A stretch of DNA of 64,000 nucleotides from an uncultured Clostridia bacterium (GTDB lineage: Bacteria; Bacillota; Clostridia; Christensenellales; Borkfalkiaceae), in NCBI GenBank assembly GCA_947626105.1, contig CANQQY010000003.1:62001-126000 (forward strand), in the 5' to 3' direction. The translations under genes were made by a program, and so were the position numbers. This document shows, piece after piece, positions 5,730 through 62,475 of the stretch (positions are counted from its first letter, which is position 1; every line of letters begins with the position of its first letter). Below the pieces are notes generated by a model. That model saw nothing but the letters and a program-made list of their open reading frames with translations, did not search any database and was not told the DNA's origin.

Positions 5730-5740
5730 AAACTTTTTGT

Positions 5741-5950: not shown

Positions 5951-5966
5951 AACCGTCCGAAAGCGT

Positions 5967-5995: not shown

Positions 5996-6012
5996 ATGTA
6001 AGACAGATCCAT

Positions 6013-6399
6013 GGGCCTGTTACGGATTCGATTGCAAGCGGATCTTGTCGGACGCACGCCGGAGGCTCGGCTCCGTAAAAACGGAAAAATTATAATTGCT
6101 GACGAAAAATCCAGCAGACGCGCTTCCGCGCGCAGAGCTTCCGCTCGCCGCGTAGCGCTTGCGGCTTAACCTTTAAGCCCCGTCCTTCCCCGGAGGCCTA
6201 CGGCCGGGGACAGGGCGTTATCGAGTAGGGAACGTTGCCCTTCGGCGGATCTCCCCCAAAGGGCGAGGCATTTCGGAGATGTGCATGCGAAGGAGTTTGT
6301 CTGCGGACTCCCCGCCTGCGAGAACGACCACAGACTAAGCGTGTAGTGTCCGCATCTGAACCTTGTAAGACCGGAGTTCGACTCTCCGCAGGTCCACCA
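6013..6399 (+). ncRNA. ssrA: transfer-messenger RNA (tmRNA)
   Basis: tmRNA rescues stalled ribosomes. The acceptor stem pairs GGGCCTG (6013-6019) with CAGGTCC (6389-6395), followed by an encoded ACCA (6396-6399). The T-arm is CGGAG-TTCGACT-CTCCG (6372-6388). The tag reading frame runs from the resume codon GCT at 6098 to TAA 6167-6169: 23 residues beginning ADEKSSRR and ending VALAA, with two ASARR copies in the middle. The LAA end fits ClpXP recognition, but the arginine content is unusual. Total length is 387 nt. The prophage begins at the last base, and the phage DNA replaces the normal downstream terminator. Confidence 0.93.
6393..6399 (+). other. attL core at the 3' end of ssrA
   Basis: TCCACCA, the last seven bases of tmRNA, recurs at 51153-51159 inside the recombinase gene. 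Joining the phage flanks of both copies rebuilds an attP with inverted arms GTGTTCG (51129-51135) and CGAACAC (6413-6419), 17 and 13 bases from the core. This is the symmetry expected for a large serine recombinase site. Confidence 0.7.
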
Positions 6400-6503
6400 G
6401 TGAAGGAGTATCCGAACACTTGAGGATCTTCGTTTTTGCCTCAATGATGGTTGCGATGCTCCCGCTTCCGGTCGCCGTTCCGGAGTGACGGCTTCCGAAG
6501 CAC

Positions 6504-6560
6504 GAAAAAAAGCCCGCCAGACGGTCAAATTTGACCTCTGGCGGGTTTCTCTTTGTTTTT
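6504..6560. terminator. bidirectional terminator at the left end of the prophage
   Basis: Stem CCCGCCAG (6513-6520) / CTGGCGGG (6538-6545) with an inner palindrome GGTCAAATTTGACC. A7 precedes it (a U tract for the minus-strand late operon) and a T-rich run follows it. In the circular phage it would lie 25 bases past the recombinase stop, so it likely ends both converging transcripts. Confidence 0.8.
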
Positions 6561-6564
6561 TGAG

Positions 6565-6987: not shown

Positions 6988-7002
6988 GTTTCTCCTCCTT
7001 TT

Positions 7003-7380: not shown

Positions 7381-7559
7381 GCTGCACCTCCTTCGCTCGG
7401 TGTCCCGAGGATCTTTTCCTTGCGCTTTTGAAGTTCCTCCGCGCGTTCGATGAGATCGACGTCATCCCGCTCGTTGAGCCGTGTAGCGATCGCTTTGATG
7501 ATGTCGTTCTGCTCTTCGATGATTGAGCAGAGGGCTTCGAGTAGTTCTTGGTTCATCAT
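7377..7559 (-). CDS. small phage protein, helical
   Basis: A 60-residue protein starting MMNQELLEALCSIIEEQNDI and continuing as charged helix to EGGAA. It is predicted to be almost entirely alpha-helical. It overlaps the preceding gene by an ATGA junction, with AGAAGGAGGAAGCGG as ribosome site, so the pair is translationally coupled. Small helical proteins of this type (XkdX-like by position) sit between the fibre and holin genes of many phages. Function is unknown. Confidence 0.5.
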   Translation of the reverse strand: MMNQELLEALCSIIEEQNDIIKAIATRLNERDDVDLIERAEELQKRKEKILGTPSEGGAA

Positions 7560-8179
7560 GCCGCCGCTTCCTCCTTCTGCCATCCGTATTCCCCGGGCGC
7601 CCAGACGTTCGCGTCCACGGTGGACGTCCAGTGCTCGCCGTTGTAGGTGACTTTTGCGCCCTTTTCGTAGGCGTCGTGCGCACCGAGGGGGCGACTCCAC
7701 TCCGGCCACTCTTCGGCGGGATCTCCGATCTTCTTCCAGAGTGCCGGGGTTTTCTCGGGAGCCCAGTCCGCTTGCGAGGTGTGCGCTTGGATGCAGCGGT
7801 AGAGCGATTTCCCACTCTTCCGGATCTGGCCCACGCTGTACGCCGTCCCGGGGACCCAGTTCTCGAAGGTGTCGGTGTGTTCGGCTGCCGTCACCTCGTC
7901 GAGATCTCCGCGTTCGGCCATTGCGACGAACATGATGCTCGAGACGTCGCGCTGCTCGCGGACGATGTCGCCGATGTTGAACTTGACGAGAAGCACGACG
8001 GGCGCGTCCTGAATTTCGTCATGTCCGAAGAGGTTGTAGGGCTTCCCCTTGAAGGCGATCCCGACCGCCTCGCTTTCGTCTGCGGTCACGAACACGCCTG
8101 TCGTCGCGTCGCGTTTGATGAAGCGCGGGGTGTCGGTGATGCCGATCTCCGTGCCGTCCGTTTTTACAAGTCTAAACAT
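7556..8179 (-). CDS. phage protein with two CBM5/12-like carbohydrate-binding modules
   Basis: A 207-residue protein. The first 100 residues are unrecognised. After that come two modules of the chitin-binding type 3 (CBM5/12) pattern: WVPGTAYSVGQIRKSGKSLY ending in ALWKKI (about 107-151), and AHDAYEKGAKVTYNGEHW ending in EYGWQ (about 165-203). Each has the aromatic residues that stack on sugars. It may be a tail-tip accessory or bind host wall polysaccharide. It lies after the DGR genes and before the holin. Confidence 0.65.
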   Translation of the reverse strand: MFRLVKTDGTEIGITDTPRFIKRDATTGVFVTADESEAVGIAFKGKPYNLFGHDEIQDAPVVLLVKFNIGDIVREQRDVSSIMFVAMAERGDLDEVTAAEHTDTFENWVPGTAYSVGQIRKSGKSLYRCIQAHTSQADWAPEKTPALWKKIGDPAEEWPEWSRPLGAHDAYEKGAKVTYNGEHWTSTVDANVWAPGEYGWQKEEAAA

Positions 8180-8603
8180 TTTCTCCTCCTTTTGCGCCGA
8201 TCAGCCCCGCGAACTCGCGGAGCTCGGCGATGTCTGCATTGAAAAAGTCGTCGCTCCAGCACCAGAAGTCAGCGTGCTCCCGCATCCTGAAGTGTCGGAA
8301 TTTCGGCTCATTTTGCAAAACGATCCCCCAGAGCCGCTTCCGCTCGGCGAGTTGCTTCTCGGTTGCCCGGGGTTTCCGTCGGAGCGTCTGCTGGATCGCC
8401 TGCGTCAGTTTGCCGCGCTCGATGCCGTTCCCGTCGTCGTCGCGGGCGAGGTATTGATGCGCGAGTTCGCTGCCGCGGAGCATGATCGCCTTGCCGTTGA
8501 GCAGGATGGTCTCGCCGTTGCTTTCACAGACGGTCCCGAAGGGAAGGTTCAAAGGGCCGCTCAGTCCTGTGGCTCTGAGTCGCCTATGTACGATATAACG
8601 CAT
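8172..8603 (-). CDS. conserved phage protein encoded after the DGR reverse transcriptase
   Basis: A 143-residue protein beginning MRYIVHRRLRATGLSGPLNL, with NGKAIMLRGSELAHQYLARD and a C-terminal WCWSDDFFNADIAELREF. I recognise this type from other Clostridia phages near tail-fibre genes, but know no function. Its start lies 43 bases inside the reverse transcriptase gene, with GGAGGAACCAGATCC upstream of the ATG at 8603. The tight overlap suggests it is made together with the DGR proteins. Confidence 0.6.
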   Translation of the reverse strand: MRYIVHRRLRATGLSGPLNLPFGTVCESNGETILLNGKAIMLRGSELAHQYLARDDDGNGIERGKLTQAIQQTLRRKPRATEKQLAERKRLWGIVLQNEPKFRHFRMREHADFWCWSDDFFNADIAELREFAGLIGAKGGENV

Positions 8604-9763
8604 GGATCTGGTTCCTCCTGTTTTCTGACTTTTTTGTGGTATAGGTTGACGCCGAAGAGGTCGCGGAAGCATTTCCGGAGACGCAGGACGCGACCGTTGT
8701 CGTCGAACGATCTGAAGTAGGCAAGCGTCGAGCCCGCCGACTGTTCGATCGCTTCCATCGTCATCTCGCCGCGGGCGAGCATTTCGGCGAAGGCTCTGAA
8801 CTTTCTCCGCGCCCGCTTCATGCTCTCGCGGCATCCGTTGACGGTGATGTGCCCGGTCTCGCTGATCGTGTACTTCGCCTTGCAGAACTTGAAGGGCTTT
8901 GTGAGCGGCTGGACGTGCGTCTTGGCGCGGCCCAGATGGAGCCCCATCTCGGTCGACTGCTCGATCATTGCGTCGAGGATCTGCTCGGGATCCCGATCCG
9001 GCGGGACGAGGATGTTGTAGTCGTCCATGTAGTGCCCGGCTCCCTTCATGCGGAGTTGGGCCTTGATGCGGTTGTCAATAGGTGACGGCAGCGCGACCAT
9101 CTCGATCTGGCTCGGCTCGACTCCGAGAGGAACGCCGAAGTCCCCGGGGATGCGGTTGATGATCTTGTTTCCGATCTCCCGAAGAGCGTCGTCCCTGATG
9201 AGGCGGTCGTGCCTCTGCATGATGGTCGCGCGAGGTGCCGTCGGGAAGAACTTCGTGTAGTCCGCCAAAATGATGAAGCCGTCCCTGCCGTATTTCCGGA
9301 AGTGGGCGACGAGATCCTTGACGAGTTGCGCCTGCGCGAACTTCAGCCCTCTCCCGGGCAGGCTCGCGCCGTTGTTGTAGATCATGTCGGGCAGATAGAG
9401 CGGAAGGAGGACGCGCTGCGTGTAGACTTTGTGGATCTGCCTGTCCTGTATGCGCGGCGCCTCGATCCTTCGGTCTTTTCCGCGCTCATTGACGGGGAAG
9501 ATGACGTACTTCCCGGGGTTCCATGTTCCGTCGAGCAGTTTGCGCCGCCTGACTGCCGTCCCGGAAAAGAGATGCATCTCGAAGGTTTGCGTCGAGTGCT
9601 TCCATCTGACTCCGTTGCAGCACTTCCGCCCGATGAAAAACATGGCGGAATAGGTGAACACGCCTTCGACGCCTCCGAGGGCGTCGCATCGCTCCTGCTT
9701 TCGCCGCTCTCTGGCGGCCTTCCTCCGCTTGTAGCGGGCGTCACGTCGTTCTTTGCTTGTCAT
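8561..9763 (-). CDS. DGR reverse transcriptase
   Basis: A 400-residue reverse transcriptase that would copy the template-repeat RNA with adenine-specific errors. A basic N-terminus (1-25) is followed by the RT domain: catalytic Asp in ILADYTKFF (about 165-173), the DGR-type motif 4 VPLGVEPSQ (211-219, with the LGxxxSQ form), the catalytic YMDD box (245-248), and GLHLGRAKTHVQPLTKPFKF as motif 6/thumb. There is no maturase or endonuclease domain. The ATG at 9763 follows GCGGAGGACTATTCA. TR and Avd lie just upstream and the target fibre before them, the standard DGR order. Confidence 0.92.
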   Translation of the reverse strand: MTSKERRDARYKRRKAARERRKQERCDALGGVEGVFTYSAMFFIGRKCCNGVRWKHSTQTFEMHLFSGTAVRRRKLLDGTWNPGKYVIFPVNERGKDRRIEAPRIQDRQIHKVYTQRVLLPLYLPDMIYNNGASLPGRGLKFAQAQLVKDLVAHFRKYGRDGFIILADYTKFFPTAPRATIMQRHDRLIRDDALREIGNKIINRIPGDFGVPLGVEPSQIEMVALPSPIDNRIKAQLRMKGAGHYMDDYNILVPPDRDPEQILDAMIEQSTEMGLHLGRAKTHVQPLTKPFKFCKAKYTISETGHITVNGCRESMKRARRKFRAFAEMLARGEMTMEAIEQSAGSTLAYFRSFDDNGRVLRLRKCFRDLFGVNLYHKKVRKQEEPDPCVISYIGDSEPQD

Positions 9764-10139
9764 TGAATAGTCCTCCGCGCGATTGTGGTGTAGGGTGCGT
9801 CTAAATCGCTTTGACCGATGCGCATGAAACGGGATTGAGCACGAGATCCTCCCGCCATGCAAGTAGCGTCCGCGCATGGTCCGCGGTGAACACTTTTGGG
9901 ATGAACTCCCGGGAAACGTCTCTCCTTTTGCATAGGTCCACCGGCACCGAAGCGGCACCGATCTCCGACCTGTTAAAAATTGCAAAATCGGGGCGAGCGC
10001 ATACGAATTGTTGGCGTTGTCGTTGTTCGGGTCCCCGTTGTTGACATTGCAGAAGTTGTTCGAGTTGTCCGCATTGACGGACCGCTCCCACCAGTTGCAC
10101 GAAGAGCGGAGACAAAATTTCAGAGACGCACCCACGGCA
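9764..10139 (-). ncRNA. DGR template RNA region (TR plus flanks)
   Basis: The 376 bases between the Avd-like gene and the reverse transcriptase hold the template repeat (9990-10107) and a 226-base spacer before the RT gene. DGRs need TR with flanking RNA as template and priming substrate, so this spacer is probably structured RNA and not coding. No promoter is seen inside it, so it is likely cut from, or copied on, the late-operon transcript. Confidence 0.75.
9990..10107 (-). repeat. DGR template repeat (TR), 118 bp
   Basis: Matches the VR at 10711-10828 with no gaps and 15 differences, all at adenines of the minus-strand TR. Read in the target frame it encodes 13 Asn codons (AAC/AAT), the classic design for mutable positions. 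It contains 31 adenines. Beyond the GCTCGCCCCG end the sequences differ (ATTTTGCAA in TR, CAGCTTTGC in VR), which corresponds to the IMH*/IMH distinction. Confidence 0.95.
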
Positions 10140-48761: not shown

Positions 48762-48781
48762 AGGCTGCGGAGGTGATAACA

Positions 48782-49234
48782 ATGAAGCAAAAAAGAACCG
48801 CGGACGGCAAGTTTGGGGAGCGGCTCCGCTCCCTCCGAACCGAGCGTTGTCTGACGATGGAGCAGCTTTGCGAGCAGTTCAACCGTCAATTCGACGCGAA
48901 GTTGAACCGCTGCACGATCTCCAGATATGAGCACGGAGTTCAGGAGCCGATGCTGAACACGGTCGAACTCCTTGCGAAGTTTTTCGGCGTTTCGCCCGTC
49001 TACCTCATGGGGCAGAGTGAGAGCCGTTATTCCGCGTCGAACATCCAGAACAGCGCAGTCGCGCAGGGGAACAGCGCGGGCACTTTGATCGTCCGGAACG
49101 GCGTCTCTCTGGAGCGCGAACTTTCCGAGACGGAGGTCGAACTTCTCCGCATCCTCGGAGTGCTCGACGTCAAAAATCGGACGGCTCTGATGTCGTTCGC
49201 GTATGAACTTGAAGAGAGGCAGTTGAAGGGATGA
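48782..49234 (+). CDS. XRE-family prophage repressor
   Basis: A 150-residue repressor. The N-terminal HTH is FGERLRSLRTERCLTMEQLC, with NRCTISRYEHGVQEPMLNTV and LLAKFFGVSPVYLMGQSES. The second half (NSAGTLIVRNGVSLERELSE) resembles the C-terminal dimerisation part of many Bacillota phage repressors and lacks a LexA-type Ser-Lys protease motif, so induction is probably not by RecA self-cleavage. The ATG at 48782 is preceded by GCGGAGGTGATAACA; an upstream GTG would lie inside that site. Confidence 0.88.
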   Translation: MKQKRTADGKFGERLRSLRTERCLTMEQLCEQFNRQFDAKLNRCTISRYEHGVQEPMLNTVELLAKFFGVSPVYLMGQSESRYSASNIQNSAVAQGNSAGTLIVRNGVSLERELSETEVELLRILGVLDVKNRTALMSFAYELEERQLKG

Positions 49235-49668
49235 GCGCGTTCTATAAAAAAAGAGCCGCCGCCGGTTTGAACTTGGCGGAGGCTGTAGAGATTGTCGAGG
49301 GGTTGCCGGTCGAAGATCAGCGCATCCTTCTCGACGCATTAAGGAAAAAATCACGGCCCGCAAAAGGCACGGAGACGCTCGTCAAGTGCGGTCTGCTCTC
49401 CGCGTCGGGCGCCGCGTCAGTTTGCCCGTCTGACGGCGTTCTGGGCTGTCAGAGGCGGCTCGTGACGTATTTGAAGCGGAAGTTCGAGGACGACGAGTAT
49501 TTTGATCCAGATCTCGGCGAGATGGTTCCCTGTCCGTATGGTGCGGAGTACGTCGCCGCCATCGTTGTGGGCGGAGAGGCTGGCGGGGGCTGGGCGTTCC
49601 CGGACGATGACGTCACCGCGCTCCTCGACCGCTTCGGCGTGAACCGTTGCAGGGGGTGGAAGCCATGA
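49231..49668 (+). CDS. phage protein between repressor and recombinase, unknown
   Basis: A 145-residue protein: GLNLAEAVEIVEGLPVEDQR, LVTYLKRKFEDDEYFDPDLG, VAAIVVGGEAGGGWAFPDDD. It overlaps the repressor by 4 bases and the recombinase start by 4, so the three are one operon. The first part resembles a short helical motif found after repressors; the second is unknown. No enzymatic motif. Confidence 0.5.
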   Translation: MSAFYKKRAAAGLNLAEAVEIVEGLPVEDQRILLDALRKKSRPAKGTETLVKCGLLSASGAASVCPSDGVLGCQRRLVTYLKRKFEDDEYFDPDLGEMVPCPYGAEYVAAIVVGGEAGGGWAFPDDDVTALLDRFGVNRCRGWKP

Positions 49669-51332
49669 GGGCGGCCGTTTATGCTCGCTATTCTTCCCAC
49701 GCCCAGAAGGACACGTCCATTGAGCAGCAGTTCCGCGAGATCCGCGAGTGGGCCCGCGATCACGACGTCCAGATCGTCGCCGAGTATTCTGACCGCGCTC
49801 TCACCGGCACGACCGATAAGCGCGAAGAGTTCCAGAGGATGATCCGCGACTCTGCCCGGGGGCGGTGGGATGTCATCCTCGTCTGGAAGGTCGACCGCTT
49901 CGCCCGGAATAGGTATGATAGCGCGATGTATAAGGCGCGATTGAAGCGGAACGGCGTCCGCGTCATCTCCGTGAAGGAGCCGATCCCCGATGGTCCGGAG
50001 GGCATCCTTCTCGAGTCCGTCCTCGAGGGCTCTGCCGAGTATTATAGCGCGAACCTCTCCCAGAATATCAAGCGAGGCATGAAGCAGACGGCTCTCGAGT
50101 GCAAAGTCAATAACGGCGGGATCCCGCTCGGGTATCGGAAGGGCGACGACTCTCACTATGAGATTGATCCCGCGGGTGCTGCCATCGTCCGGGAGATCTT
50201 CGAGATGTACGCGGCGGGCTCGAACGTGACGCAGATCATAAACGCCATGAACGCGCGAGGGCTCAAAACGTCCCGGGGCGTGAAGTTCAATAAGAACAGC
50301 TTGAAGCGGCTCCTTCGGAACGAGAAGTACGTCGGCGTCTATGCGTGGGGCGACGTCCGCATCGAGGGCGGCGTTCCCGCGATTATTTCCCGCGAACTCT
50401 TCGACGACGTGCAGGAGCGGCTGAAGGTCGTCGCCAGAGCACCGGCAGCGGCCCGCACCGAGGCTGACAACATCCTGACCGGAAAACTTTTCTGCGGCCG
50501 ATGCGGGAGCCCGATGGTGGGCGACTCCGGAACGTCGCGGAGCGGCCGAAAATTTTACTATTACACTTGCGCAAAACGGAAGCGCGACCGCGCCTGTGAT
50601 AAGAAGTCCGTCCGGAAGGCGTGGATCGAGGAGTTCATCGTTCGATCGCTGAAGGAGCGCGTCCTCTCCGACGACGTGATCGCCGTCATCGTCGACTCCG
50701 CTCTGGATCTTCAGAGGCGAGAGCAGGACGACACCGTTCTTCATAACTTGGAGGAGCAGCTCGCGGTCGTGGAGCGCGGGATCTCGAACCTTGTCCGCGC
50801 CATCGAGCAGGGCATCATCACCTCCTCTACGAAGAAGCGGCTCGACGAACTCGAAGCCGAGCGGAACGATCTCGAGATCGCCATCGCGGACGAGAAGATC
50901 CAGCAGCCGCAGTTGACGCGCGAGCAGTTGACCTTCTGGCTCGAACGCTTCCGCGACGGGGATCCCACGGATCCGGCGTACCGGGCGACGTTCATCGAGG
51001 TCTTTGTCTCTTCGGTCTACCTATACGACGACCATCTGCGCGTCGTTTGTAATTTCACGGAGGACGGGGCCGCCGCCTCCTTCGAGTTCGTGGATGGGCT
51101 CGACGAGGGAACGGACGACTCCGCCGAGGTGTTCGACTTTGAGACGCGCTGCTCCACCACGTCGCCGCAAGGCGCGTTTTGCAAAGGGTTGCCGAAAGGC
51201 AACCCTTATGCTTTTTCGGGAGCCCTATGGGCGTTGCTTGCATCTCTGCGGCAGAAAAGCGTGTGCGGATTTGATACCCGGCTCCACTACGCAAGGGACG
51301 CGAGTGACAGAGGATCTTGTCGCCCCTCTTAG
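49665..51332 (+). CDS. int: large serine recombinase (phage integrase)
   Basis: A 555-residue serine integrase. The catalytic domain starts RAAVYARYSS (nucleophile Ser), then SIEQQFREIREWARDH, EYSDRALTGTTDKREEFQRM and WKVDRFARNRYD. The recombinase domain has GGIPLGYRKG, and the zinc-ribbon domain CGRCGSPMVG, with Cys pair partners YYTCAKRKRDRACD. A long coiled coil (about 350-420) controls directionality in this family. The last 59 residues, after CST at the att core, are read from host DNA through a terminator hairpin; in the phage circle the protein would be about 527 residues. Confidence 0.95.
   Translation: MRAAVYARYSSHAQKDTSIEQQFREIREWARDHDVQIVAEYSDRALTGTTDKREEFQRMIRDSARGRWDVILVWKVDRFARNRYDSAMYKARLKRNGVRVISVKEPIPDGPEGILLESVLEGSAEYYSANLSQNIKRGMKQTALECKVNNGGIPLGYRKGDDSHYEIDPAGAAIVREIFEMYAAGSNVTQIINAMNARGLKTSRGVKFNKNSLKRLLRNEKYVGVYAWGDVRIEGGVPAIISRELFDDVQERLKVVARAPAAARTEADNILTGKLFCGRCGSPMVGDSGTSRSGRKFYYYTCAKRKRDRACDKKSVRKAWIEEFIVRSLKERVLSDDVIAVIVDSALDLQRREQDDTVLHNLEEQLAVVERGISNLVRAIEQGIITSSTKKRLDELEAERNDLEIAIADEKIQQPQLTREQLTFWLERFRDGDPTDPAYRATFIEVFVSSVYLYDDHLRVVCNFTEDGAAASFEFVDGLDEGTDDSAEVFDFETRCSTTSPQGAFCKGLPKGNPYAFSGALWALLASLRQKSVCGFDTRLHYARDASDRGSCRPS
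51153..51159 (+). other. attR core inside the recombinase gene
   Basis: TCCACCA, identical to the attL core. The left flank carries the arm GTGTTCG (51129-51135). The right flank is host DNA and begins 24 bases before a strong terminator that would naturally follow ssrA. Confidence 0.7.
51184..51216 (+). terminator. displaced ssrA terminator
   Basis: AAGGGTTGCC-GAAA-GGCAACCCTT (51184-51207) then TATGCTTTTT. It lies inside the recombinase reading frame of the prophage, an unlikely place for a phage terminator, but where the ssrA terminator should be if attB was the tmRNA 3' end. It would now end recombinase transcripts just before the stop codon. Confidence 0.75.
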
Positions 51333-51418: not shown

Positions 51419-51711
51419 AGCAAGGGGATGCCAAGACAACCCCCACTACCGCCGCAAGCGGCGGAGCCGCCCCCTTCAAAGGGGGCAGCCAAGGGACAAT
51501 GGCGTCCGAAGCGGCGCAAATCCCTTCCGAAACGTGAACGAATTTTCAAAAAGTCAAAATTTTCATGCAAAATGTTCCGAAATCATACGAAAAAGTGCGG
51601 ATTGTTCAAATTATTTTTTTCAAACCGATTGACACGCTTCATTTGCTGTGATAAAATGCTAATGCTTATAGTGTCATTCTATAAGAAACTATATTTTAAG
51701 GAGTGGAATTT
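51333..51711. other. intergenic region before the giant lipoprotein gene
   Basis: 379 bases. The first part is palindromic repeat modules (to about 51490); the rest is AT-rich and holds the consensus promoter at 51629-51657 and a 7-bp dyad (CTTATAG / CTATAAG, 51665-51685) in the leader. No gene is seen. Confidence 0.75.
51629..51657 (+). promoter_or_regulatory. promoter of the giant lipoprotein gene
   Basis: TTGACA (51629-51634), exactly 17 bp, TAAAAT (51652-51657). The predicted start is near 51664, giving a leader of about 48 bases with the small dyad at 51665-51685 at its very 5' end, which may stabilise the mRNA. Confidence 0.85.
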
Positions 51712-54700
51712 ATGAACAAATTGAGAAAAGCGCTCGTTGTGATTCTCAGCGCCCTGTTCCTGCTCTGCGTATCGCTCTTTGCGGCATGCACGACCGGTTC
51801 AGGCAAGACTCAGGCGCAAAAGCCCGATGACGCGGTCACGCCCGGCCAGTCGGAGCAAGAGTCAGAGGAGAAACCCGGCGATCCTCAAGAGGAGACCTGC
51901 GACATCCATGTCGAGGTAAACGACGAGGCGCTCGGAGCGTATCGGCTTAGCGGCGAACGCGCGGTAAACGGCGGCTTTAAGGTCGGCACGCCCGTCACCG
52001 TTACGGTCGAACCCGCCGCAGGGTACGACGCAACGCTCAAAGTAAACGGGGAAGAAGTTCCCCTCGACGGCGGCAGCTATACGTTCACCGCCCAAGCGGA
52101 CACGACGCTCTCCGTCGATTACAATTATAAATACCGCATTTCGACCACCGTTCTTGCGGGCGAGGGCACGATCACGCCCGCCGCTCCCGCGGACGGCGAG
52201 AAGTACGCCGAGGGCGAAGATGTCAAAGTCGAAGTCGCGCCCGCAGCGGGCTACGTTGTCGAATATGTCAAGATCAACGGCGTAGTCACCGAGCCCGATG
52301 AGGACGGCAAATACACCGTCAAAATGACGGGCAGAATGTACGTCGTTGCGGAATTTATCGCAGTCCATACGATCACCGTTGAGAACAACGGAAACGGTAC
52401 CGTTACGCTCAATGACGCGGCATACGAAGCGCCCATCGAAAACGTCAAGGACGGCACGGTGTACACCCTCAAAGTCACCCCCGCGGACGGCGAAGAGATC
52501 AAGGCGGTCTATGTGAACGGCGCGCTCACCCCGCTCGACGCGGAAGGCAAGGCGACGATCACCGTCAAGGCGGATACTTTGATCAAGGTCGTCTATGTCG
52601 GGCGTTACACGGTGTCGCTTCCCGAAAACGAGAACGTTGTTGTCAACATTGCGGAAGGCAAAGCGGCGTCCTACGCCGAGGGCACGGTGCTCCACATTAC
52701 CGTTTCCGCGGTTGAAGGTTATAGGCTTACCTCCGTCACCGTCAAAGTCGGCGAGACTCCCGTGGAAGCCTTGGGCGGCGTCTATACCGTCACCATGTCC
52801 GCAAACGTCACCGTAGAGGCGGACGTGGAAGCCCTCGCGGAAGTCGAAAAACACACCGTGACCATTCTCTATAACAACGGTTCCTTTGGCTCGGCGGAGC
52901 TTACCGGCGCAGAAGCCGTTGAAGGGCAGTATGCTTATGGTTCCGAACTCACCCTCACCGTTACGCCCAATGAGGGCAACGAGCTCGACAAGGTCGAAGT
53001 CAACGGCAAGAAGGTCGCGCTCGAAGAGGGCAAGTACACCTTCACCGTAAAAGAAGACACGGCAATCTATATTGTATTTAAGGCTCTGCCCCGCTACATC
53101 GTCACGGTCGACGACCGGACGGGCGCCGACGCTACGATCGCCGTCAGCGAGCCTTTCGATAACAATACCGATAAGGCTTACTACGAAGGCGAGGAGCTCA
53201 CGATCACCGCAACGGAGATCGCCCCTCATTGCCTCGTGTTTGTCGCTGTGGATGGCGGCGAACCCGTGGACATCACGGCGGACGAAAATGGCAATTACGT
53301 TTGGAAACATACGGTCACGGCGGACGTCAAGCTCACAGTTACCGTATTGCATTCCTTCTCGGTCGAGATCAATAACGATCCCTTAAAGGGCACCGTCGAG
53401 CGTCTGCTTGAAGGCGGCAGCACCGAAGCGGTCGAGTCTTGGTATCAAGAAAACGAGGAAGTCACGCTTATCATCACTCCTTTGGAAGGTTACAGGATTT
53501 CCAAAGTTACCGTAGTGAGCGGCGGAGAGTCCTTCGTTGATGAGTTCGATTATATCACCGCAAGCCATACCGTCGCCCTCTTGGGTGAAAACACCGTCGT
53601 CACGGTGGAGTATGTCGCGATTTACGAAATTTCCGTAAACGTTGCGGGCATTGACGGCGTAGAGAACGCTTCCGTCGTCCTCACCGTTGTGAATACGGAA
53701 AGCGGAGAGCAGGTCAAAGAGCTTGGAACGCTCACCGAAAGCGGCGAAAAGACCTATACGCTCGACGAAGGGACTTCCTTGAAGGCTAAATATACCGCGC
53801 CCGTCACGCACCGTATCGGCTTGGATCCTCAAATCCCCGGGGTTTCGTTTGGCGGCATGGGTTATGTGGAACCCGGTGCGGACAAGGAAGGCACTTTTGA
53901 CTTCTCGTTCACTTATAATGGCGGTAGCGTAAGCGTGACTTACGAGCTCTACACCCATACCGTCACGGTCGACGGTCAGTTGCAAGAGGCTCCTGTCACA
54001 AACAGCGAGAGCTACAAACTTCCCGCCCAGCCTGATCCGCAATACGGTTTGAACGGGCTGAACCAGAACTATGAATACACGTTCACTTGGGTTGTCAACG
54101 GCGTTGAGTATGCGGCAGAAGCCACAGTCGAAAATGTCCGCAAAGATCTTGTCGTCACCTCCAAGTGGTCTGCGCAGCTTCCTGTTGAGAAAAGCGTGAC
54201 GGGCACTCCCGAAGGCGGCAGCGTTGATTGGGGCAATCTCCAAGATGCATCCACGCTGATTGAGGGCACCGAGTTCGACGTCACGATCGTCGTTCCCCAA
54301 GGCTATCGGGCTATTGTAAAGTTCTATACTCATACAAAGAATGTAATAACGGGTAGTGAAGGCAAAGTCACTACTGCAATGGGGGTCTATCAGGCCAAGA
54401 CCGAAGACTTGACAGCGCATTTCAAAGATACCGTCCGCGCAGGCCTGAAACTCGAGATTGAAATCACCTACGAAAAGATCTTCACCGTCACCGTAACAGA
54501 GAATGAAAACGTTGACGTCGTGATTTTGTCGCATGGCGATTACAACAACGACTACTTCACCGTAGGCAACGTGTTCGAGTTCACCGTCACCGCGCACGAT
54601 GGTTACAAAGTAACGGCCGTTAAGGCAAACGATACTGTCCTTGATCTCGTCGACGGCAAGTACTCTCACGTTCTCACGGGCGAAACCACGATCACGATCG

Positions 54701-57700
54701 AAACCGTCAAGCTCGCTTCCGTCGCGCTTACCGTAAACGGCGACCCCGAAAGCAACGTCACACTCACCAATGGCGCGGATAGTGTTGAAACCGGCGCTTC
54801 TCTCCCCGTCGGAACCAAACTTACCCTCAACATTACCGTTCCCGAGGGATATAAAGTCAAATATACCGTACCCGGCAGTGAAGTTCAGGAAGCTTACGAA
54901 ACCGTCACCGTAGACGACATCGAGGTTGTGGACGGCGGCATTACCATTTCGGTTGAGTTCGTCAAGGTCTACACCGTGACGGTCGAAGCGGAAAACGCCA
55001 ACGTGACGCTCGATCCCACCAACGATAAAAAAGCCTATGAATTGAACGCCCAAGTCAAAGTTACGGTTGAGGCCGTAGGAGAGTATGTGATCGATTCCGT
55101 CACGGCAGACGTTGAAGGCGCTCTTGTGGATAATAAAGACGGCACCTACACCCTCACCGTTACGGATAACGTCACGATCACCGTGTCCGTGCTTCCCAAG
55201 CTCACGGTAGACTTCCCTGTGTCGAATCCGGACGAGCCGAGCACTTCGAACGGCGCACCCGAACAGGGTGAGTGGAAAGCCATGGACGGCGCGGACAACG
55301 TTATCGAGATCGGCGCCAACACCATGACGATCAACGGCAAGCCTGTCACGAAGATCGAATCAAACGGTAAGACGGATGGCACAGTCGTCTACACCCTCAC
55401 CACGGATGACGGCGACTATACCATGGCGTGGTTCGGCGAAGCAGAGGGCTACATTCTTATGCTTACCGATCCGTCCGCGGCAGTTTCCGTTTCCCGCAGG
55501 GCAGTCCGTACGATCGCGGCGGGGGGGGTGAGCTACTATGTGAACCCCAAGTATTCCGCGGAATATTTTGATGATTTTGTCGAGGGCGACAGCGAGAAGC
55601 TCGTCAATATCGACTGGACGGCGGACGAATCGCATCTCTCCGTGACAAATGTGGACGGCAAGATCCACATCTCTCTCGGCGAAGATGCCGCGAAGTATGT
55701 CTTTGCGGTAGAGGCAGGGCATTATCTGTTTGTCATCGGCGCCGGCGCTTACGATCTTACTCTCGCCGAGGACGGCTCCACCCTCACCGTCAACGGAACA
55801 ACTTACTCCAAACCCGTGGAGAACGAAGTCACGAGAGTTTATGGCGCAGAGCTTCGCGGTGTGTTGCTTGTCCTTAAAATTGAGGTGAAAGGCTATACCC
55901 AAGAAGAATTGAACACTGCCGAAATCAAACTTATTTGCGGCCCGGACAACACTTCTTACGACAAAGCGGCGCTCAATTCGGTTGGCGATTATTATGAGCT
56001 TCACTTTAATGGGATCATCAATTTGGGAGCAGGCGAGCATGAGCTTTCCCTCAAAGTCGGGAATCAGGTATTTGATAACCTGACGGATAGTGCGCAACCT
56101 TCCTCTGTGCCCAATGGCGAAAAGACGTATGAGCTTTCCGTAAAAGAAACGAAGCTCGTTCTTACGGTCTCCGAGAAGACTGTTGAGATCGAGAAGAAAC
56201 TCGAAGATTTCCATGGTGGTTCTTTTAATACCAACGAAGAAACGATTGAGTTCTTTGTACATGTATATGGTTATCAGGATTCCGAGCTTACCGCAGAAAA
56301 TGTATCTCTGGTTTACGATACATATACGGTTGACTGTGCGCTTAGCGGAAGTCTCATTTCCAACAATATCGCGTCGAACAGTCACGTTATTATCCATCTT
56401 CAATTCAAGCTCGAAACAATTGGAGTCCATGGTGCTACCGAGTTAAAGCTGAAAATAGGTGATGATTCCTATTCTATCAATCATTCGGGTCTTGTAGGCA
56501 CCGGCACCAAAGACGGTAAAGTTTACAACATCACCCATGCAGACGGGAAACTTACCCTCACCGTTTCCGAAGCGCAGACCGAGTACACCGTTCGGGTTAT
56601 GGAAGAAAGCAAAATTGATGGTTGCTCCTACGAACTCAAAAACAATGGCGAAGATGTAGGCGAAAAAGTTCCCGCGAACGCGACGCTTACACTCACCGTC
56701 ACTGTTCCCGAAAATTATACGGCAACCGTGAAAGTTGATGGAGCTACGCTTGAAAATAACGGCGAAAATTCCTACACGATCAAGAACATCACCGGCGATG
56801 TCACTATCACCATCACCTACGCCGAAAAAGGCGAAGTTAACGAGCCCATTGATTTGCCCGAAGAAAGAGAACATACTGCGAATGATATTTATGCTGACAA
56901 CTTTTTCTCTTTGCATCTTGCAAATGATGGTGTAAAATGGATCGCAGACAATGGCGTCGTTAAAGTGTTGATTGACGATGCCGATACGCCTACCGTGCAC
57001 GAAGCAAACAAGGGATTTAATATTGTTGGGAATAATGAATCAATCAATGTCATGATCAATGGCTTGACGAAAACTTCCCATAAATCCGAATATGTCCTTC
57101 ATTGGTATAACGAGGCAGGGCAGGAAGTCGCAAGAACAACGGTTCATTTTACCGGCGGTTCCGTTGATCCCGATGCACCCAAGGAGTTGCCTTCCAATGG
57201 TGAAGATAACGCTCCGAACGGATGGTCATATTACAATGAAGGCAGAACAATAAACGCGACAGAAAAAGACGGCATTGTGACCGTTACATTCTCCGGAAAC
57301 CAAAATGGAAATTGGTGGGGCATTCAGGTGTACTATAAGAATAAAGAGTACACTTCGGGCGCCAAGATTACCGTTTCCTTCACGATCACCTCTACGGTAG
57401 CAGGCAAGATTCGCTTCCTCGACAATGGCGAAGATGGGACCGAGGTTCTCGAATTCACGCAGGATAAGCTGACTCTTGATTTCACAAGTAAGGCGTTCGT
57501 CGTCAATAGTAAAAATACCGTTGTCAAACTGTACATGGCTATTGAGAATGAAGCCCGTATCGACGCCGCGACGATCACGATCTCCGACCTTCACATCGAA
57601 AAAGTTACCGATCCCGAACCGCAAAAATCCGTCACGGGAACGACTGCAAAGCTCGAGCAGGACGAAAACGGTGTCTATCTTGTTGTCGACGGTACTTCTA

Positions 57701-60700
57701 CGGGGTACGATGAAGCAGGTTTGAAGGCTTTGCTTGAAGGCTATAAGTATGATTTCCAGCGGAATTCCAACCTTCAATTGGGCAATGAGGATTGGACAGA
57801 TTACAATAGGTATCAACCCAAGTCTGTTACCATTACCGTGAATGGCGCCAATTGGACGGCGAAATTTGATATTTCGAATCTTGAGCCCTACTCTTACATG
57901 TTCCATTTCGGTCCGCTTGTAAATCAGAATGATGAAATGGTGCCGGATAACATGTTCTTTGCCGATACAAGCATCAGCGGCGAAGAAACTCTTGACAATA
58001 AGAAGTACGAACTCAACAATATGCTTGGCAAATCGGAGGGCTCCGATTGGCGTAACAACTACGGCCTCCTCGGCATTGTCGTCACCGACGTCACGGTTCC
58101 CGCGTACGAGGCAACGAGCGTCGACCTTGTCAATGAAGACGGTACGGTCTACTTCGTCATCAAGGGCACTTATGCGAATTATGAGAAGACCGATTTGGAG
58201 ACTGCACTCAAGGCTGTGCATTTCAACCTTCAGAATAACCCTAATCCAGACGAACATTCAGTGTCGAATCCCGAGTGGGGACTTTACTACAACTTCACTT
58301 CCGTAGTAACCATCGATGAAGAGGCTCATACTTGGGAGATCCGTTACGATGTTACCGTGAAGGATGGAAACAACGTCACATTGAAGAATAACGGAGAGGA
58401 ATCAGCCGTGGCATGGGGCGCAGGCGCCTACACGGCACACTTCGGCGGCGAGGCTGTCGACCTTAAACAGACGGCAGAAAACGGCAAGACCTTCACGTTG
58501 GGCGACAGATACGTCTACACGCTCCACTATTATAAAGACAGCAAAGTCGGGAAGGAATATTGGGGCTGCGACGGTCTTAGCATTGTCGACAAGCAGTCGA
58601 AAGAACTCAACGCTACGATCGACTACAATACGCTAACATTCACGAAGGAAGGCGAGGACGTTTACGTCAGCTTCACAGGTACATGCCAAAACATCACAAG
58701 CGAGAGCCAGCTTAGCCTCGACTTCTACGATCAAAACGGTGAACGTACCGTCAACCCCGAGTCTGTTGTAGTCACCCTTCAGGACGGCACCTATACGATC
58801 AAGGCAAAGGCGACAAATGTACCCGCCGGCGACTACCTCATGCACTTGATCATCATCAATGGTGAAGCAAAGAGAAACATTAATGTCATCAGCGCAGACA
58901 AAGAGGGCATGCAGATCGGTGAAACCTATACGATCGGTAATAAGACATATAAGGTTTCCGGCAAAAATTATCAAGGCTGGGCGGAAGGCAGAATTTGCCT
59001 CACCGTTGAGGAACTGAACGCGCCCGAGCTCACCCTTCAAAAGGCAGAACTTTTGAAGGATGAGGACAGCAAGATCTATATTGTCTACACCGTGGGCGAT
59101 CTCAAGAACTGCGAGCCCGCACAACTTGCCAATGTCAAGTTCAACGGGGCGGATGGCGGTCTTACATGGGTCATTTCGCAAACCAAGACTTACAAGGTGG
59201 TTGGTGATGGCACATACAAGATTTACTTCGAGATCACGAATGTCCCCGAAGGAAATCGTGAGTACTACGGCAATTGGTGGCGTACAGTTCTTTGCTTTGA
59301 CGGACAAAGCAATCTTCCCAAGGCGACCGGCTGCGTCCTCGGTGAAACGAAGAGCGTTGACGGCGAGAACGGCGTGTATTACACGCTCCACGACGAAGGC
59401 GGAAATCCTTACTTTATCGTCAATCAGAAGCTCACCATTACCCTTAACTTTGGGGAAGGCTACGAACCCGAATCCGAGCAGGCCACAGTCGATTACGAAG
59501 CGAACTACACCATGCCCGACAAATATGTGACCCTCACCCGTACGGGCTATGTCTTTGGCGGTTGGCTCCGTGATGGGCAGAAAGTTGATCCGAACGAGCA
59601 GGGTAAGATCGTCATTGAGAAAGTTACTGACAATCTTGAACTTACCGCCTCGTGGACGAAAGAGCAGTACGATGTTACCGTGTCCGATAACCTCGGCGAT
59701 GTTGAGGGCGCGGGCAGCGTCACGGTTGTCCCCGGAAACGGCCAGAAGGTCGAATTTGAGGGCACCGTCACGATCACGGTGAGCGTGAATGAAGGTTACC
59801 GCGTCACGGTCAAAGTGAACGATCACGCGGAACTCGAAAATTACACTGACGCAGCGGAAAAGGTGATTACGGTCACTGCAACGGGTGCCGTCAAGATCGA
59901 AGTTATCTTTGAAAGCACCGATACCGAAGTGAGTAACTCCGTTTCCCCCAAATTTGTCGGCGCGGGGAGCGATGTGAGCGAGAGTGACGCCCGAGGCGCG
60001 ATCTCCGGTCTGGAAGGCTTCCGGTCCTATAAGGCAAATGATTCCGTCACGATCTCCTTTGTTGTCGCAAAGGAGTACGGCGCAACGGTTACGGCGGGAG
60101 AAGCTGTTACGCTCGGTGAACCTGAAATCGTCGCCGAAGGCGATGACTACAAGTATACCTACACGTTCACAATGCCCGAGGAGGCCGTCACCGTTACCAT
60201 TACAGTCGCGAAGAGAGTTGACTCGAGCGAGACTAAGTGGGGCGTTCAGAGCGGTGATAGCAATATCAGCTACCAGTGGCAGTGGTTCGATCGGACGCGC
60301 GATGATAGTGCTGATAGTAAAGATAAAGACGAGAATGGAGGTCTTCTTTACGGCACCATCACCATCAACATGTATGATGTCACGAATATGGCCGACGCTG
60401 CGACCCACAACTTCACGTTGGATACACCTTATGCAACGGTCGAGATCACAAACAGGGGATTCTTCGCGCGCAGCAATATTGAAGACGTAATAAAAGCCAC
60501 ATGGACAGAGAAGGGCGGCGAGGGCGAACTTAAATTAGTCTTTGCGTTCGTACTGCACCCCACCGAGAATAAGAGAGCGCTGGGCTATACCGATTCCGAA
60601 CTTTGGTATGCAACCGAAGGCGGTAAGGATCAAGTGTCCGATACCCGTGAAATCATAACCTATGATTTCGCATCCGAACCCGTGATCACTTGGGATAAGG

Positions 60701-62475
60701 CCTACCTTGAAACAAGTGTAGAGGATGGGAAGGTCTATCTCGTCTATACGATCAGCACCCTCGAAAACTGCGATGTAAATGATCTCGAGACGATCATTTA
60801 TAAGACCAGAAGCGATGAGCCCGATTTGACGGTCGCGAAGGTGGACGAGACAGACGGTTATAAGGTCTATTTCGATCTTTCCCAGATGGTAAGTAATAAC
60901 GATTGGCGTACTGTCAGCCTCACGATGAACGGTAAACCGCTTCCCGCGCCTTCCTTGACGGTGGACGGCGGAAATCAGTATCTCCATTATAATGGCAGAG
61001 TTTATAGGCTTGCGCCTAACTTCATCGCGGTAATGGATCACCCCTCTGTCACTTTCGACAAGGGTGAAGGTGTTGGCGGCGAGGATCCCGTTGTGACGGA
61101 ATTCGGTAATCCCGATGATCCCGGCAACATGGATATTACGCTTCCCGACTGCACCTACACTGCGCCCGCAGGAAAAGCATTCATTCACTGGCTTGTAAGT
61201 GTAAACAGCGAAGAAGGGACGCCCCATCAACCTGGTGAAAAAGTTAAAGTGAACTATAACAATACCGTAACTGTAACCGCGGTTTGGGATCACGTTTACG
61301 AGAATGGTGTCTGCACGATCTGCGGCGTTGTCTGCGACCATGCGGGCGAAAGCGAAACCTGCTCCAAGTGCGGCGCAACGCTTGTGACCCTTCACTACGA
61401 TAATCTTGCCGCTTGGACGGATGCTTATCGTTCCGAAACCCCGTTGACGAAGGGCGGCAGGATCATGGTCTACGGCTCCGAAGTAGGGGCTTCCAATACC
61501 GATCCCGGCAACACGATACATTGGGAGCTTCTTGATGGTTATACGGGACGTTTGGATAACTTCGGGTGGACCTTTGTCCCTGGTGGAGCTCAGGCAACCT
61601 CATTTAGTCAGTGGATCAATACTGAACAAAATCCCGGCGTTTCAAGAAGCACATATATCCTTTGCAAAGATGCGAACGGCGCTCCGTCAACAGACGATTG
61701 GTTTGCAGTGATGAAGGATGTTGCGGAACAGTGCAATTGGCTTGTGGATGCATATTGGTACATCAATGATGTCATCAATGTTCGTTGCTATCTTACCAGT
61801 ACAAAGACAGAGGGGGCGCATGCAGGATATTCGTTCGAAATTCTCTACGCCATTAAGTTGGTTGATACCTCCAAAACATCGCTGGGGTTCCGTATCACGT
61901 CCAATGGCTCTTGCGCGACAATTAACATCAGTGGCCACTATGAATCAACGGTACAGAACAATACTGTTGTTGAAGAGCCGAAGAATCTTCCGACATGGGA
62001 TGCTATTCAAAGCACGACGCTTGTCAAGGGCGGCAGTGTCACGTTGGAAGCAACGCTTGATTCGTTCGGGGCAGCTACATGGAATTCCATTGTCGCACGT
62101 TTGGATGTCGTAGATGGAGGGAATTCCTTCTTCTTCCGTCCGGATGGCATCGCGCACAACCCGTGGGCATGGCACGGTGCAGTCGTATCCGACGAAACCG
62201 TCTCGATTGGCGGAGTTGACTATACTTTGAGTTCCACGTCAACCGGGAACTTAGACATAGCCGCATTGAAGGGCGGAAAGATCCGTATCACTTTCTCCCT
62301 TGCTGACGACGGCACGTTGACCTTCACCTATTCGATCACGAATGGAGAAAGCACGTTCTCGTATTCCGGAAGCATCAAAGGATTGAATGCCGCCGGATAC
62401 ACCCTTGATTTTGCACAGGATCAAGGTACCAGCTCGGGCATCAAGATCACGACCACTTTCCCCGCACAAGCGTAA
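51712..62475 (+). CDS. giant InlB-repeat surface lipoprotein (3587 aa)
   Basis: A very large exported protein. MNKLRKALVVILSALFLLCV is a signal peptide and FAAC (Cys 26) a lipobox, so it should be anchored by lipid. After an acidic linker come many about 70-residue divergent InlB B-repeat (Flg_new_2-type) units, each with a 'GxxVxVTxxPxxGYxxxxVxVNG' pattern, to about residue 1170; then larger beta modules (about 1170-2570), an InlB/Flg_new unit with GYVFGGWLRDGQ (about 2620), a Cys knot ICGVVC...CSKCGA (about 3200-3223) and two C-terminal lectin-like beta-sandwich modules (to 3587). No LPXTG, SLH or enzyme motif is seen. Likely an adhesin or polysaccharide binder. The ATG follows TAAGGAGTGGAATTT. 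Confidence 0.88.
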   Translation: MNKLRKALVVILSALFLLCVSLFAACTTGSGKTQAQKPDDAVTPGQSEQESEEKPGDPQEETCDIHVEVNDEALGAYRLSGERAVNGGFKVGTPVTVTVEPAAGYDATLKVNGEEVPLDGGSYTFTAQADTTLSVDYNYKYRISTTVLAGEGTITPAAPADGEKYAEGEDVKVEVAPAAGYVVEYVKINGVVTEPDEDGKYTVKMTGRMYVVAEFIAVHTITVENNGNGTVTLNDAAYEAPIENVKDGTVYTLKVTPADGEEIKAVYVNGALTPLDAEGKATITVKADTLIKVVYVGRYTVSLPENENVVVNIAEGKAASYAEGTVLHITVSAVEGYRLTSVTVKVGETPVEALGGVYTVTMSANVTVEADVEALAEVEKHTVTILYNNGSFGSAELTGAEAVEGQYAYGSELTLTVTPNEGNELDKVEVNGKKVALEEGKYTFTVKEDTAIYIVFKALPRYIVTVDDRTGADATIAVSEPFDNNTDKAYYEGEELTITATEIAPHCLVFVAVDGGEPVDITADENGNYVWKHTVTADVKLTVTVLHSFSVEINNDPLKGTVERLLEGGSTEAVESWYQENEEVTLIITPLEGYRISKVTVVSGGESFVDEFDYITASHTVALLGENTVVTVEYVAIYEISVNVAGIDGVENASVVLTVVNTESGEQVKELGTLTESGEKTYTLDEGTSLKAKYTAPVTHRIGLDPQIPGVSFGGMGYVEPGADKEGTFDFSFTYNGGSVSVTYELYTHTVTVDGQLQEAPVTNSESYKLPAQPDPQYGLNGLNQNYEYTFTWVVNGVEYAAEATVENVRKDLVVTSKWSAQLPVEKSVTGTPEGGSVDWGNLQDASTLIEGTEFDVTIVVPQGYRAIVKFYTHTKNVITGSEGKVTTAMGVYQAKTEDLTAHFKDTVRAGLKLEIEITYEKIFTVTVTENENVDVVILSHGDYNNDYFTVGNVFEFTVTAHDGYKVTAVKANDTVLDLVDGKYSHVLTGETTITIETVKLASVALTVNGDPESNVTLTNGADSVETGASLPVGTKLTLNITVPEGYKVKYTVPGSEVQEAYETVTVDDIEVVDGGITISVEFVKVYTVTVEAENANVTLDPTNDKKAYELNAQVKVTVEAVGEYVIDSVTADVEGALVDNKDGTYTLTVTDNVTITVSVLPKLTVDFPVSNPDEPSTSNGAPEQGEWKAMDGADNVIEIGANTMTINGKPVTKIESNGKTDGTVVYTLTTDDGDYTMAWFGEAEGYILMLTDPSAAVSVSRRAVRTIAAGGVSYYVNPKYSAEYFDDFVEGDSEKLVNIDWTADESHLSVTNVDGKIHISLGEDAAKYVFAVEAGHYLFVIGAGAYDLTLAEDGSTLTVNGTTYSKPVENEVTRVYGAELRGVLLVLKIEVKGYTQEELNTAEIKLICGPDNTSYDKAALNSVGDYYELHFNGIINLGAGEHELSLKVGNQVFDNLTDSAQPSSVPNGEKTYELSVKETKLVLTVSEKTVEIEKKLEDFHGGSFNTNEETIEFFVHVYGYQDSELTAENVSLVYDTYTVDCALSGSLISNNIASNSHVIIHLQFKLETIGVHGATELKLKIGDDSYSINHSGLVGTGTKDGKVYNITHADGKLTLTVSEAQTEYTVRVMEESKIDGCSYELKNNGEDVGEKVPANATLTLTVTVPENYTATVKVDGATLENNGENSYTIKNITGDVTITITYAEKGEVNEPIDLPEEREHTANDIYADNFFSLHLANDGVKWIADNGVVKVLIDDADTPTVHEANKGFNIVGNNESINVMINGLTKTSHKSEYVLHWYNEAGQEVARTTVHFTGGSVDPDAPKELPSNGEDNAPNGWSYYNEGRTINATEKDGIVTVTFSGNQNGNWWGIQVYYKNKEYTSGAKITVSFTITSTVAGKIRFLDNGEDGTEVLEFTQDKLTLDFTSKAFVVNSKNTVVKLYMAIENEARIDAATITISDLHIEKVTDPEPQKSVTGTTAKLEQDENGVYLVVDGTSTGYDEAGLKALLEGYKYDFQRNSNLQLGNEDWTDYNRYQPKSVTITVNGANWTAKFDISNLEPYSYMFHFGPLVNQNDEMVPDNMFFADTSISGEETLDNKKYELNNMLGKSEGSDWRNNYGLLGIVVTDVTVPAYEATSVDLVNEDGTVYFVIKGTYANYEKTDLETALKAVHFNLQNNPNPDEHSVSNPEWGLYYNFTSVVTIDEEAHTWEIRYDVTVKDGNNVTLKNNGEESAVAWGAGAYTAHFGGEAVDLKQTAENGKTFTLGDRYVYTLHYYKDSKVGKEYWGCDGLSIVDKQSKELNATIDYNTLTFTKEGEDVYVSFTGTCQNITSESQLSLDFYDQNGERTVNPESVVVTLQDGTYTIKAKATNVPAGDYLMHLIIINGEAKRNINVISADKEGMQIGETYTIGNKTYKVSGKNYQGWAEGRICLTVEELNAPELTLQKAELLKDEDSKIYIVYTVGDLKNCEPAQLANVKFNGADGGLTWVISQTKTYKVVGDGTYKIYFEITNVPEGNREYYGNWWRTVLCFDGQSNLPKATGCVLGETKSVDGENGVYYTLHDEGGNPYFIVNQKLTITLNFGEGYEPESEQATVDYEANYTMPDKYVTLTRTGYVFGGWLRDGQKVDPNEQGKIVIEKVTDNLELTASWTKEQYDVTVSDNLGDVEGAGSVTVVPGNGQKVEFEGTVTITVSVNEGYRVTVKVNDHAELENYTDAAEKVITVTATGAVKIEVIFESTDTEVSNSVSPKFVGAGSDVSESDARGAISGLEGFRSYKANDSVTISFVVAKEYGATVTAGEAVTLGEPEIVAEGDDYKYTYTFTMPEEAVTVTITVAKRVDSSETKWGVQSGDSNISYQWQWFDRTRDDSADSKDKDENGGLLYGTITINMYDVTNMADAATHNFTLDTPYATVEITNRGFFARSNIEDVIKATWTEKGGEGELKLVFAFVLHPTENKRALGYTDSELWYATEGGKDQVSDTREIITYDFASEPVITWDKAYLETSVEDGKVYLVYTISTLENCDVNDLETIIYKTRSDEPDLTVAKVDETDGYKVYFDLSQMVSNNDWRTVSLTMNGKPLPAPSLTVDGGNQYLHYNGRVYRLAPNFIAVMDHPSVTFDKGEGVGGEDPVVTEFGNPDDPGNMDITLPDCTYTAPAGKAFIHWLVSVNSEEGTPHQPGEKVKVNYNNTVTVTAVWDHVYENGVCTICGVVCDHAGESETCSKCGATLVTLHYDNLAAWTDAYRSETPLTKGGRIMVYGSEVGASNTDPGNTIHWELLDGYTGRLDNFGWTFVPGGAQATSFSQWINTEQNPGVSRSTYILCKDANGAPSTDDWFAVMKDVAEQCNWLVDAYWYINDVINVRCYLTSTKTEGAHAGYSFEILYAIKLVDTSKTSLGFRITSNGSCATINISGHYESTVQNNTVVEEPKNLPTWDAIQSTTLVKGGSVTLEATLDSFGAATWNSIVARLDVVDGGNSFFFRPDGIAHNPWAWHGAVVSDETVSIGGVDYTLSSTSTGNLDIAALKGGKIRITFSLADDGTLTFTYSITNGESTFSYSGSIKGLNAAGYTLDFAQDQGTSSGIKITTTFPAQA

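Follow-up and report, generated by a model that had tools for sequence, protein, structure and literature searches.

What becomes of an integrase gene when the site through which its phage enters the host lies inside that very gene? The question is raised by a prophage of 44,760 bp in the window, by which we mean the whole stretch of DNA that was analysed (64,000 nucleotides from an uncultured Clostridia bacterium). The prophage is bounded by a core at the 3′ end of ssrA, the tmRNA gene, and by a copy of this core within the gene for its own large serine recombinase (LSR). At stake is whether the lysogen and the free phage encode the same enzyme and, if not, whether the difference matters.

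The prophage in ssrA and its recombinase gene

The two copies of the core are identical, with no flanking identity on either side (Table 1). A first-pass annotation of the window had placed the core in frame at codon 497 of the recombinase gene, and the same codon (phase 0, counted from the ATG at 49665) was obtained when coordinates and phase were recomputed. In the circular phage, the joined frame gives a recombinase of 527 residues with a phage-coded tail (..CSTSEGVSEHLRIFVFASMMVAMLPLPVAVPE), agreeing in length, stop codon and the start of the tail with that annotation, and a phage hairpin lies where a terminator had been put, about 25 bases past the TGA. The prophage form has 555 residues, the last 57 codons (499-555) being wholly or partly host-coded and the frame crossing the ssrA terminator; the 59 residues into host DNA that had been reported hold if the count starts at codon 497, but the host-coded codons number 57. 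With this adjustment, the original observation is confirmed, nearly to the base level.

Both ARAGORN and Rfam judge ssrA to be complete after the insertion, which places the element among those that target tDNA. The tmRNA tag (window 6013-6399) is long and arginine-rich (ADEKSSRRASARRASARRVALAA). That the junction at 51159 is an artificial join made during assembly is scarcely credible: the genome is in 32 contigs, but one core is common to both junctions, the flank matches the empty sites of relatives, and the layout is repeated in relatives.

Table 1. Features of the window that bear on the integration of the prophage
Feature	Position	Strand	Basis
ssrA (tmRNA), intact target gene	6013..6399	+	ARAGORN; Rfam RF00023, 143.4 bits
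attL core TCCACCA, the 3′ end of ssrA	6393..6399	+	sequence comparison
attL crossover dinucleotide CC (putative)	6394-6395	+	inferred from the geometry common to relatives
stranded 3′ end of the phage-form recombinase gene	6400..6488	+	P′ half of attP, conserved tail codons, TGA 6486-6488
P′ arm GAAC of the attP palindrome	6414..6417	+	reconstructed attP
phage terminator hairpin	6510..6555	+	fold z -4.5 for 6440-6560
helix-turn-helix gene and 145-aa gene	48773..49668	+	ORF coordinates, Pfam HTH
large serine recombinase, prophage form, 555 aa	49665..51332 (stop 51330-51332)	+	Resolvase, Recombinase, Zn_ribbon_recom
phage-coded part of the recombinase gene, core included	49665..51159	+	frame reconstruction
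P arm GTTC of the attP palindrome, motif GTTCGACTTTGA, dual-coding	51131..51134	+	reconstructed attP
attR core TCCACCA, codon 497 onward	51153..51159	+	core comparison
host-coded tail of the prophage-form recombinase, codons 499-555	51160..51332	+	empty-site relatives, frame
displaced ssrA terminator in the recombinase frame	51184..51216	+	perfect 10-bp stem and T run

By its domains, its predicted fold and the arms of its reconstructed attP, the window enzyme is a large serine recombinase (phage integrase). Pfam PF00239, PF07508 and PF13408 score above their cut-offs in the order Resolvase, Recombinase, zinc ribbon, and a Foldseek search with the model of the enzyme returned 9dxd_A as the best match (E 5e-22; SPbeta integrase), followed by 9iu2_A (1e-20) and 4kis_A (2e-15). 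The reconstructed attP has the form GTTC-N39-GAAC (47 bp), with ACCA directly after the CC at positions 20-21, while symmetric arms are absent from the reconstructed attB; an attP of about 50 bp with arms is what is expected of an LSR. The AlphaFold model is of fair confidence to about residue 480, with pLDDT below 50 at 484-555; in the model of a free form (L239), a low-confidence strand at 504-510 follows a disordered linker.

Upstream of the recombinase, the helix-turn-helix gene (48773-49234) overlaps the 145-aa gene at 49231-49234, which in turn overlaps the start of the recombinase at 49665-49668. The three genes are likely to form one operon, and the recombinase may therefore be co-transcribed in the lysogen with the presumed repressor. 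Since attP lies in the recombinase gene, the arrangement is not that of integration-dependent immunity.

Origin of the exchanged ends in the window and its relatives

The first-pass annotation had also held that integration moves the ssrA terminator into the recombinase gene. A perfect hairpin (51184-51207) with a T run (51212-51216) does lie within the prophage recombinase frame (fold z -3.5), and its counterpart was met in a survey of empty sites, in which the tmRNA was sought in 61 genomes of the same genus, 52 matched above the cut-off and 30 loci were read. In L092, the right flank of the window (CGTCGCCGCAAGGCGCGTTTTGCAAAGGGTTGCCGAAAGGCAACCCTT) stands directly 3′ of the ssrA CCA with the same bases, hairpin included; close versions with small changes follow ssrA in L109 and L095 (with L092, 3 of the 30 loci), diverged versions in L090 and L093, and other sequence at the remaining loci. 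Because this flank lies directly behind ssrA in prophage-free genomes of the same genus, the hairpin is that of the ssrA terminator, which has ended up in the recombinase gene much as had been proposed.

The 59-residue end was not found in relatives integrated elsewhere, where it would have spoken for a phage-coded origin. A peptide (TSPQG..) at another site (L129) was considered as such a phage-coded end and rejected: it is a host terminator repeat, also found behind tRNA-Cys, tRNA-Ala and ssrA, and it resembles the start of the host tail because this same repeat follows tRNA-Cys and tRNA-Ala in relatives. The repeat (CGTCGCCGCAAGGCG..GGTTGCC..GGCAACC; L137-L148) stands behind unrelated tRNA genes and ssrA in the genus, with one copy in the genome of the window itself. 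In G203:C4 (L140, L144), the last ssrA bases and the terminator occur a second time about 300 bp further downstream, as if a lost island had left a scar there.

To compare recombinase ends in free phages and prophages, as the first-pass annotation had suggested, we used IMG/VR relatives of the window group (the LSR of the compared phage is 72% identical to that of the window). Two records, L293 and L294, which we assigned as free and integrated from their palindrome and flanks, agree at every one of 4492 bases as far as the core extends and diverge at the next base, with 65 ungapped matches in the 300 positions past the core. L293 has the full palindrome, a tail of 26 residues after TCC ACC (STIGGAVEHWGLFVYSTGFVASIPLPTP, then a stop) and a terminator beyond it; L294 has 8 residues and a different terminator (tail STNCEQHGFS, then a stop). 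The frames in the window and in these two records bear out the claim that the lysogen encodes a different C-terminus, the two 3′ ends having been swapped, and a C-terminus that differs before and after integration sets the window phage among elements with an att site in their own integrase. A second pair, L302 and L042, agrees at 1407 of 1426 gene bases and then diverges. The attL of L294 was not found, nor was a tmRNA in the records of L293, L294 and L006, which are apparently fragments; a tmRNA-end pattern sought in the records of L006, L041 and L042 gave one match, in one of the three.

The layout is a recurrent one among relatives, with the predicted attP in the end of the LSR gene and the putative crossover just before the ACCA of a tRNA or tmRNA. 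The half site TTY-N19-XY-RCCA, whose XY-RCCA ends match tRNA and tmRNA 3′ ends, is present in 54 of the 69 ends of related LSR genes, where mononucleotide shuffles would lead one to expect 3.6 (the members are related by descent, and L001 and L011 are one gene). The 79 IMG/VR loci that could be used fall into 45 with the complete palindrome in frame, 17 with a half site (a count that includes misplaced halves, L317 and L324 at least) and 17 with neither. Upstream, in 10 of the 15 relatives examined as well as in the window, a tRNA or ssrA on the same strand has an end that matches and is followed by the other half of attP. The recombinase of L012 and that of L112 enter ssrA antisense, i.e., the site is inverted. 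In G005:C5 and G085:C5, two of the ten relatives with such an upstream gene, GCCA at the right junction and ACCA behind tRNA-Arg suggest a crossover before the last four bases, with the discriminator base replaced by the element. By the rule GTTC-N39-GAAC around XY-ACCA, att sites can be read straight off an integrase gene end, a help in the search for tools.

Several relatives are of interest in themselves. Integration in G005:C5 and G085:C5 appears to turn the discriminator base of tRNA-Arg from G to A, the element supplying the last four bases. The integrase of Roseburia phage Shimadzu (L080; LR596903) is annotated as a pseudogene; read by eye, its 3′ end contains GTTC-N39-GAAC and stays open until a stop that precedes a hairpin. 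In G169:C18, one tRNA-Leu is followed by two tandem recombinase genes (the first being L180 15767-17284), and where the two meet, a complete attP arises anew within the first gene. The ten relatives whose limits were set at tRNA ends are about 6-22 kb long, which is little for a phage (L193 12312-19925; L195 about 110-8960). Two of the ten presumably carry relaxase-like genes, judging from a motif read by eye, so that these relatives look like mobilizable elements.

The phage-coded tail and the exchanged terminators

Whether the lysogen loses anything of value depends on the phage-coded tail, for which four groups were picked by eye from the free forms. In the window group, the free-phage tails (5 sequences) read SEGVSEHLRIFVFASMMVAMLPLP.. 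(that of the window), IGGAVEHWGLFVYSTGFVASIPLP.., IRGVNEHTRLYITSTMFVMLLPL.., NGGVNEHTRIYVCSSLFVVLLPLP.. and MMHLSEHEATIIVMPAVFVLTVPLP... Beyond the P′ arm, the window group has a pN/pS of 0.69, group B of 0.39, group C of 0.23 and group D of 0.19; tail identity is 0.42, 0.62, 0.76 and 0.82 (window group, B, C, D) as against 0.58, 0.64, 0.68 and 0.78 in the last 160 residues before the core. Conservation is thus weakest in the window group. The tail of L111 is short and degenerate and that of L306 nearly absent, although both have the palindrome.

A second type of tail, x-x-[YN]-N-P-N..W-F-G-F, stands behind ACCA in 131 of 398 family genomes (reversed control, 0). We read 45 such places, one of which (L193/L206) is counted twice: 34 follow an annotated tRNA or tmRNA, 2 are in a recombinase frame and 9 are unassigned. 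The tails of this type (36 distinct ones) all stop at 21-29 aa; within the first 60 nt, a stop occurs in none of 38 tails in the integrase frame and in 21 and all 38 in the other two frames. Codon position 3 varies most (permutation p 0.0006), and the largest class has a pN/pS of 0.33 for the stretch between the stems of the hairpin and of 1.31 for the four codons behind it. The P′ arm forms one side of this hairpin, with 96.6% of cells paired and both-side changes of the inner stem in 15 cells, so that a covarying stem comes on top of the codon signal and both RNA and peptide are under constraint there.

The same pairing could be put down to selection on nucleic acid only, with the P′ arm kept for recombination, the hairpin kept for ending the tRNA or tmRNA transcript, and the peptide a mere passenger. 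In Geosporobacter (L042), moreover, the arm GTTCGACTTTGAAG is retained at an equal distance in a different reading frame, so that DNA rather than peptide is the thing conserved there. We nonetheless hold this account to be very unlikely, since groups B to D have a pN/pS of 0.19-0.39 past the arm, position 3 is the most variable, and the lengths of 52, 55 and 61 keep the frame in all but about four among the matches listed. The notion that EVFDFE at the C-terminus is conserved solely as protein was also rejected, the same DNA being found in another frame in L042.

Comparison of the predicted proteins of relatives shows the lost tail to be a conserved protein element and its host-coded replacement to be arbitrary; conservation as protein suggests that lysogens lose a selected part of the enzyme. 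It is unlikely, in our judgment, that attP just overlaps the end of the integrase gene as a neutral economy, the tail being dispensable and both endings equivalent. The great diversity of integrated-form endings (from none to hundreds of residues) would be at home with such neutrality, as would the position of the tail after a segment predicted to be disordered, but it leaves unaccounted for tails in groups B to D whose conservation is close to that of the last 160 residues ahead of the core, with low pN/pS, and a stop 71-90 nt past the core in most free forms.

By analogy, the tail could instead be a stability tag that makes the integrase of the free phage short-lived and leaves the lysogen form differently stable. 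The layout is the same as in integration-dependent immunity, where a degradation tag sits at the C-terminus of the phage-form repressor (18 extra residues; PMC6109161, in excerpt), and the tails of the window group are hydrophobic; many tails, however, end in charged residues (e.g., KHRVE, EKR), and the conserved residues sit inside the tail, not at its extreme end. We rate this as quite unlikely.

Terminators are exchanged along with the tails. The stop precedes the first terminator-like hairpin in 38 of the 41 free forms for which a hairpin was found (44 examined, among which L017, L119 and L133 may be misclassified). The integrated forms (45 counted out of 50 examined) include 31 whose frame stays open beyond the T run of the host terminator, among them the window, where the T run ends at +56 and the stop comes at +173. 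If the terminators act on the transcript, the lysogen mRNA would lack a stop codon, and the integrase mRNA of the lysogen is accordingly predicted to be possibly non-stop. As a selected feature, the non-stop condition was rejected: the +1 and +2 control frames are open past the terminator in 35 and 34 of the 45, as often as the integrase frame, so that the open frame is a by-product of nearby host terminators. A doubtful but not far-fetched possibility is that the non-stop mRNA leads tmRNA to tag the integrase for destruction, with excision restoring the stop, the tail and a stable enzyme. If true, integration would disarm the integrase via host ribosome rescue, and the window phage would do so in ssrA itself.

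The reading that we favor, and think rather probable, is that integration alters the integrase by swapping a conserved tail for a host tail and that excision restores it. A temperate phage has used the large serine recombinase that it encodes to enter the 3′ end of ssrA. Its attP (GTTC-N39-GAAC, with the CC in TCCACCA as the putative crossover) lies within the 3′ end of the recombinase gene, and recombination swaps the two 3′ ends. Thereby ssrA retains its CCA and acquires phage DNA and the phage terminator (6510..6555), which would end the recombinase transcript in the circle and stands behind ssrA in the lysogen, while the recombinase gene loses its last phage-coded codons and terminator and gains host DNA and the ssrA terminator. 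The tail presumably matters to the free-phage enzyme, i.e., for integration, and its loss may give a lysogen recombinase of altered or lowered activity; the likeliest route would be the loss of the tail itself, and a possible second one poor synthesis from an mRNA that ends at the host terminator, ahead of any stop. Against this reading counts the fact that excision requires the prophage-form enzyme to function at least once, whatever host tail it has.

Relation to known systems

The principle of an att site that changes the tail of its own integrase is already in print (the papers are cited here from excerpts). In Mx8, attP lies in the integrase gene and integration swaps 112 C-terminal residues for 13, the modified integrase being less active (PMC4701971; PMC6070905); a similar principle is stated for Mx9 (PMC6070905). 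Both integrases are of the tyrosine family with a different site structure, whereas the window enzyme is a serine recombinase. The streptococcal ICEs in rumA, which have a serine integrase, are a precedent for the principle; their target is a protein gene, whereas that of the window phage is a tRNA/tmRNA 3′ end, and the conserved tail, fixed geometry and terminator exchange of the window phage and its relatives are not described for them in the excerpts at hand. In BPs and relatives and in Bb423phi2, attP lies in a regulatory gene and integration strips a phage-coded C-terminal tag (PMC6109161; PMC4557955). Such integration-dependent immunity alters the repressor, whereas the window phage alters its integrase, and the Bb423phi2 integrase is of the tyrosine rather than the serine family.

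SPbeta SprA (YokA), the best model match (9dxd), is a large serine recombinase like the window enzyme. Abe and colleagues are said to have proposed its extreme C-terminus as part of the direction switch. The attP of SPbeta lies between sprA and sprB (PMC8270828). This position would leave sprA unaltered by integration, unlike the window recombinase. In SSV-type archaeal viruses, the integrase gene is partitioned on integration. Their integrase, which extends across attP (PMC4383910), is of the tyrosine family, whereas that of the window is a serine enzyme.

A 2014 database paper, as excerpted, states that serine integrases are not known at tRNA genes and that tyrosine recombinases alone target tRNA/tmRNA (PMC4383910), which the window and its relatives contradict on sequence evidence. 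We found neither serine integrases that target tRNA/tmRNA ends in this way nor the fixed spacing, the conserved tail or the terminator exchange in the open-access literature, which is weak evidence of absence. The one-way control of serine integrases is an active question, to which site geometry, the coiled coil and the RDF are the answers known so far (PMC12412911, section 17, in excerpt). Here, many natural elements differ between the free and integrated states solely in the final few dozen residues of their integrase, and the conserved free tail, set against the arbitrary lysogen tail, makes a natural series with which to probe the role of the extreme C-terminus.

Elsewhere in the prophage, the minus strand at window 9750-9973 matches the RT-2 RNA family (115 bits) within a reverse-transcriptase-like ORF at 8561-10135 (YMDD read by eye). 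Directly behind the prophage, an open frame of 3590 aa with a repetitive look (window 51703-62475) is probably a host surface protein.
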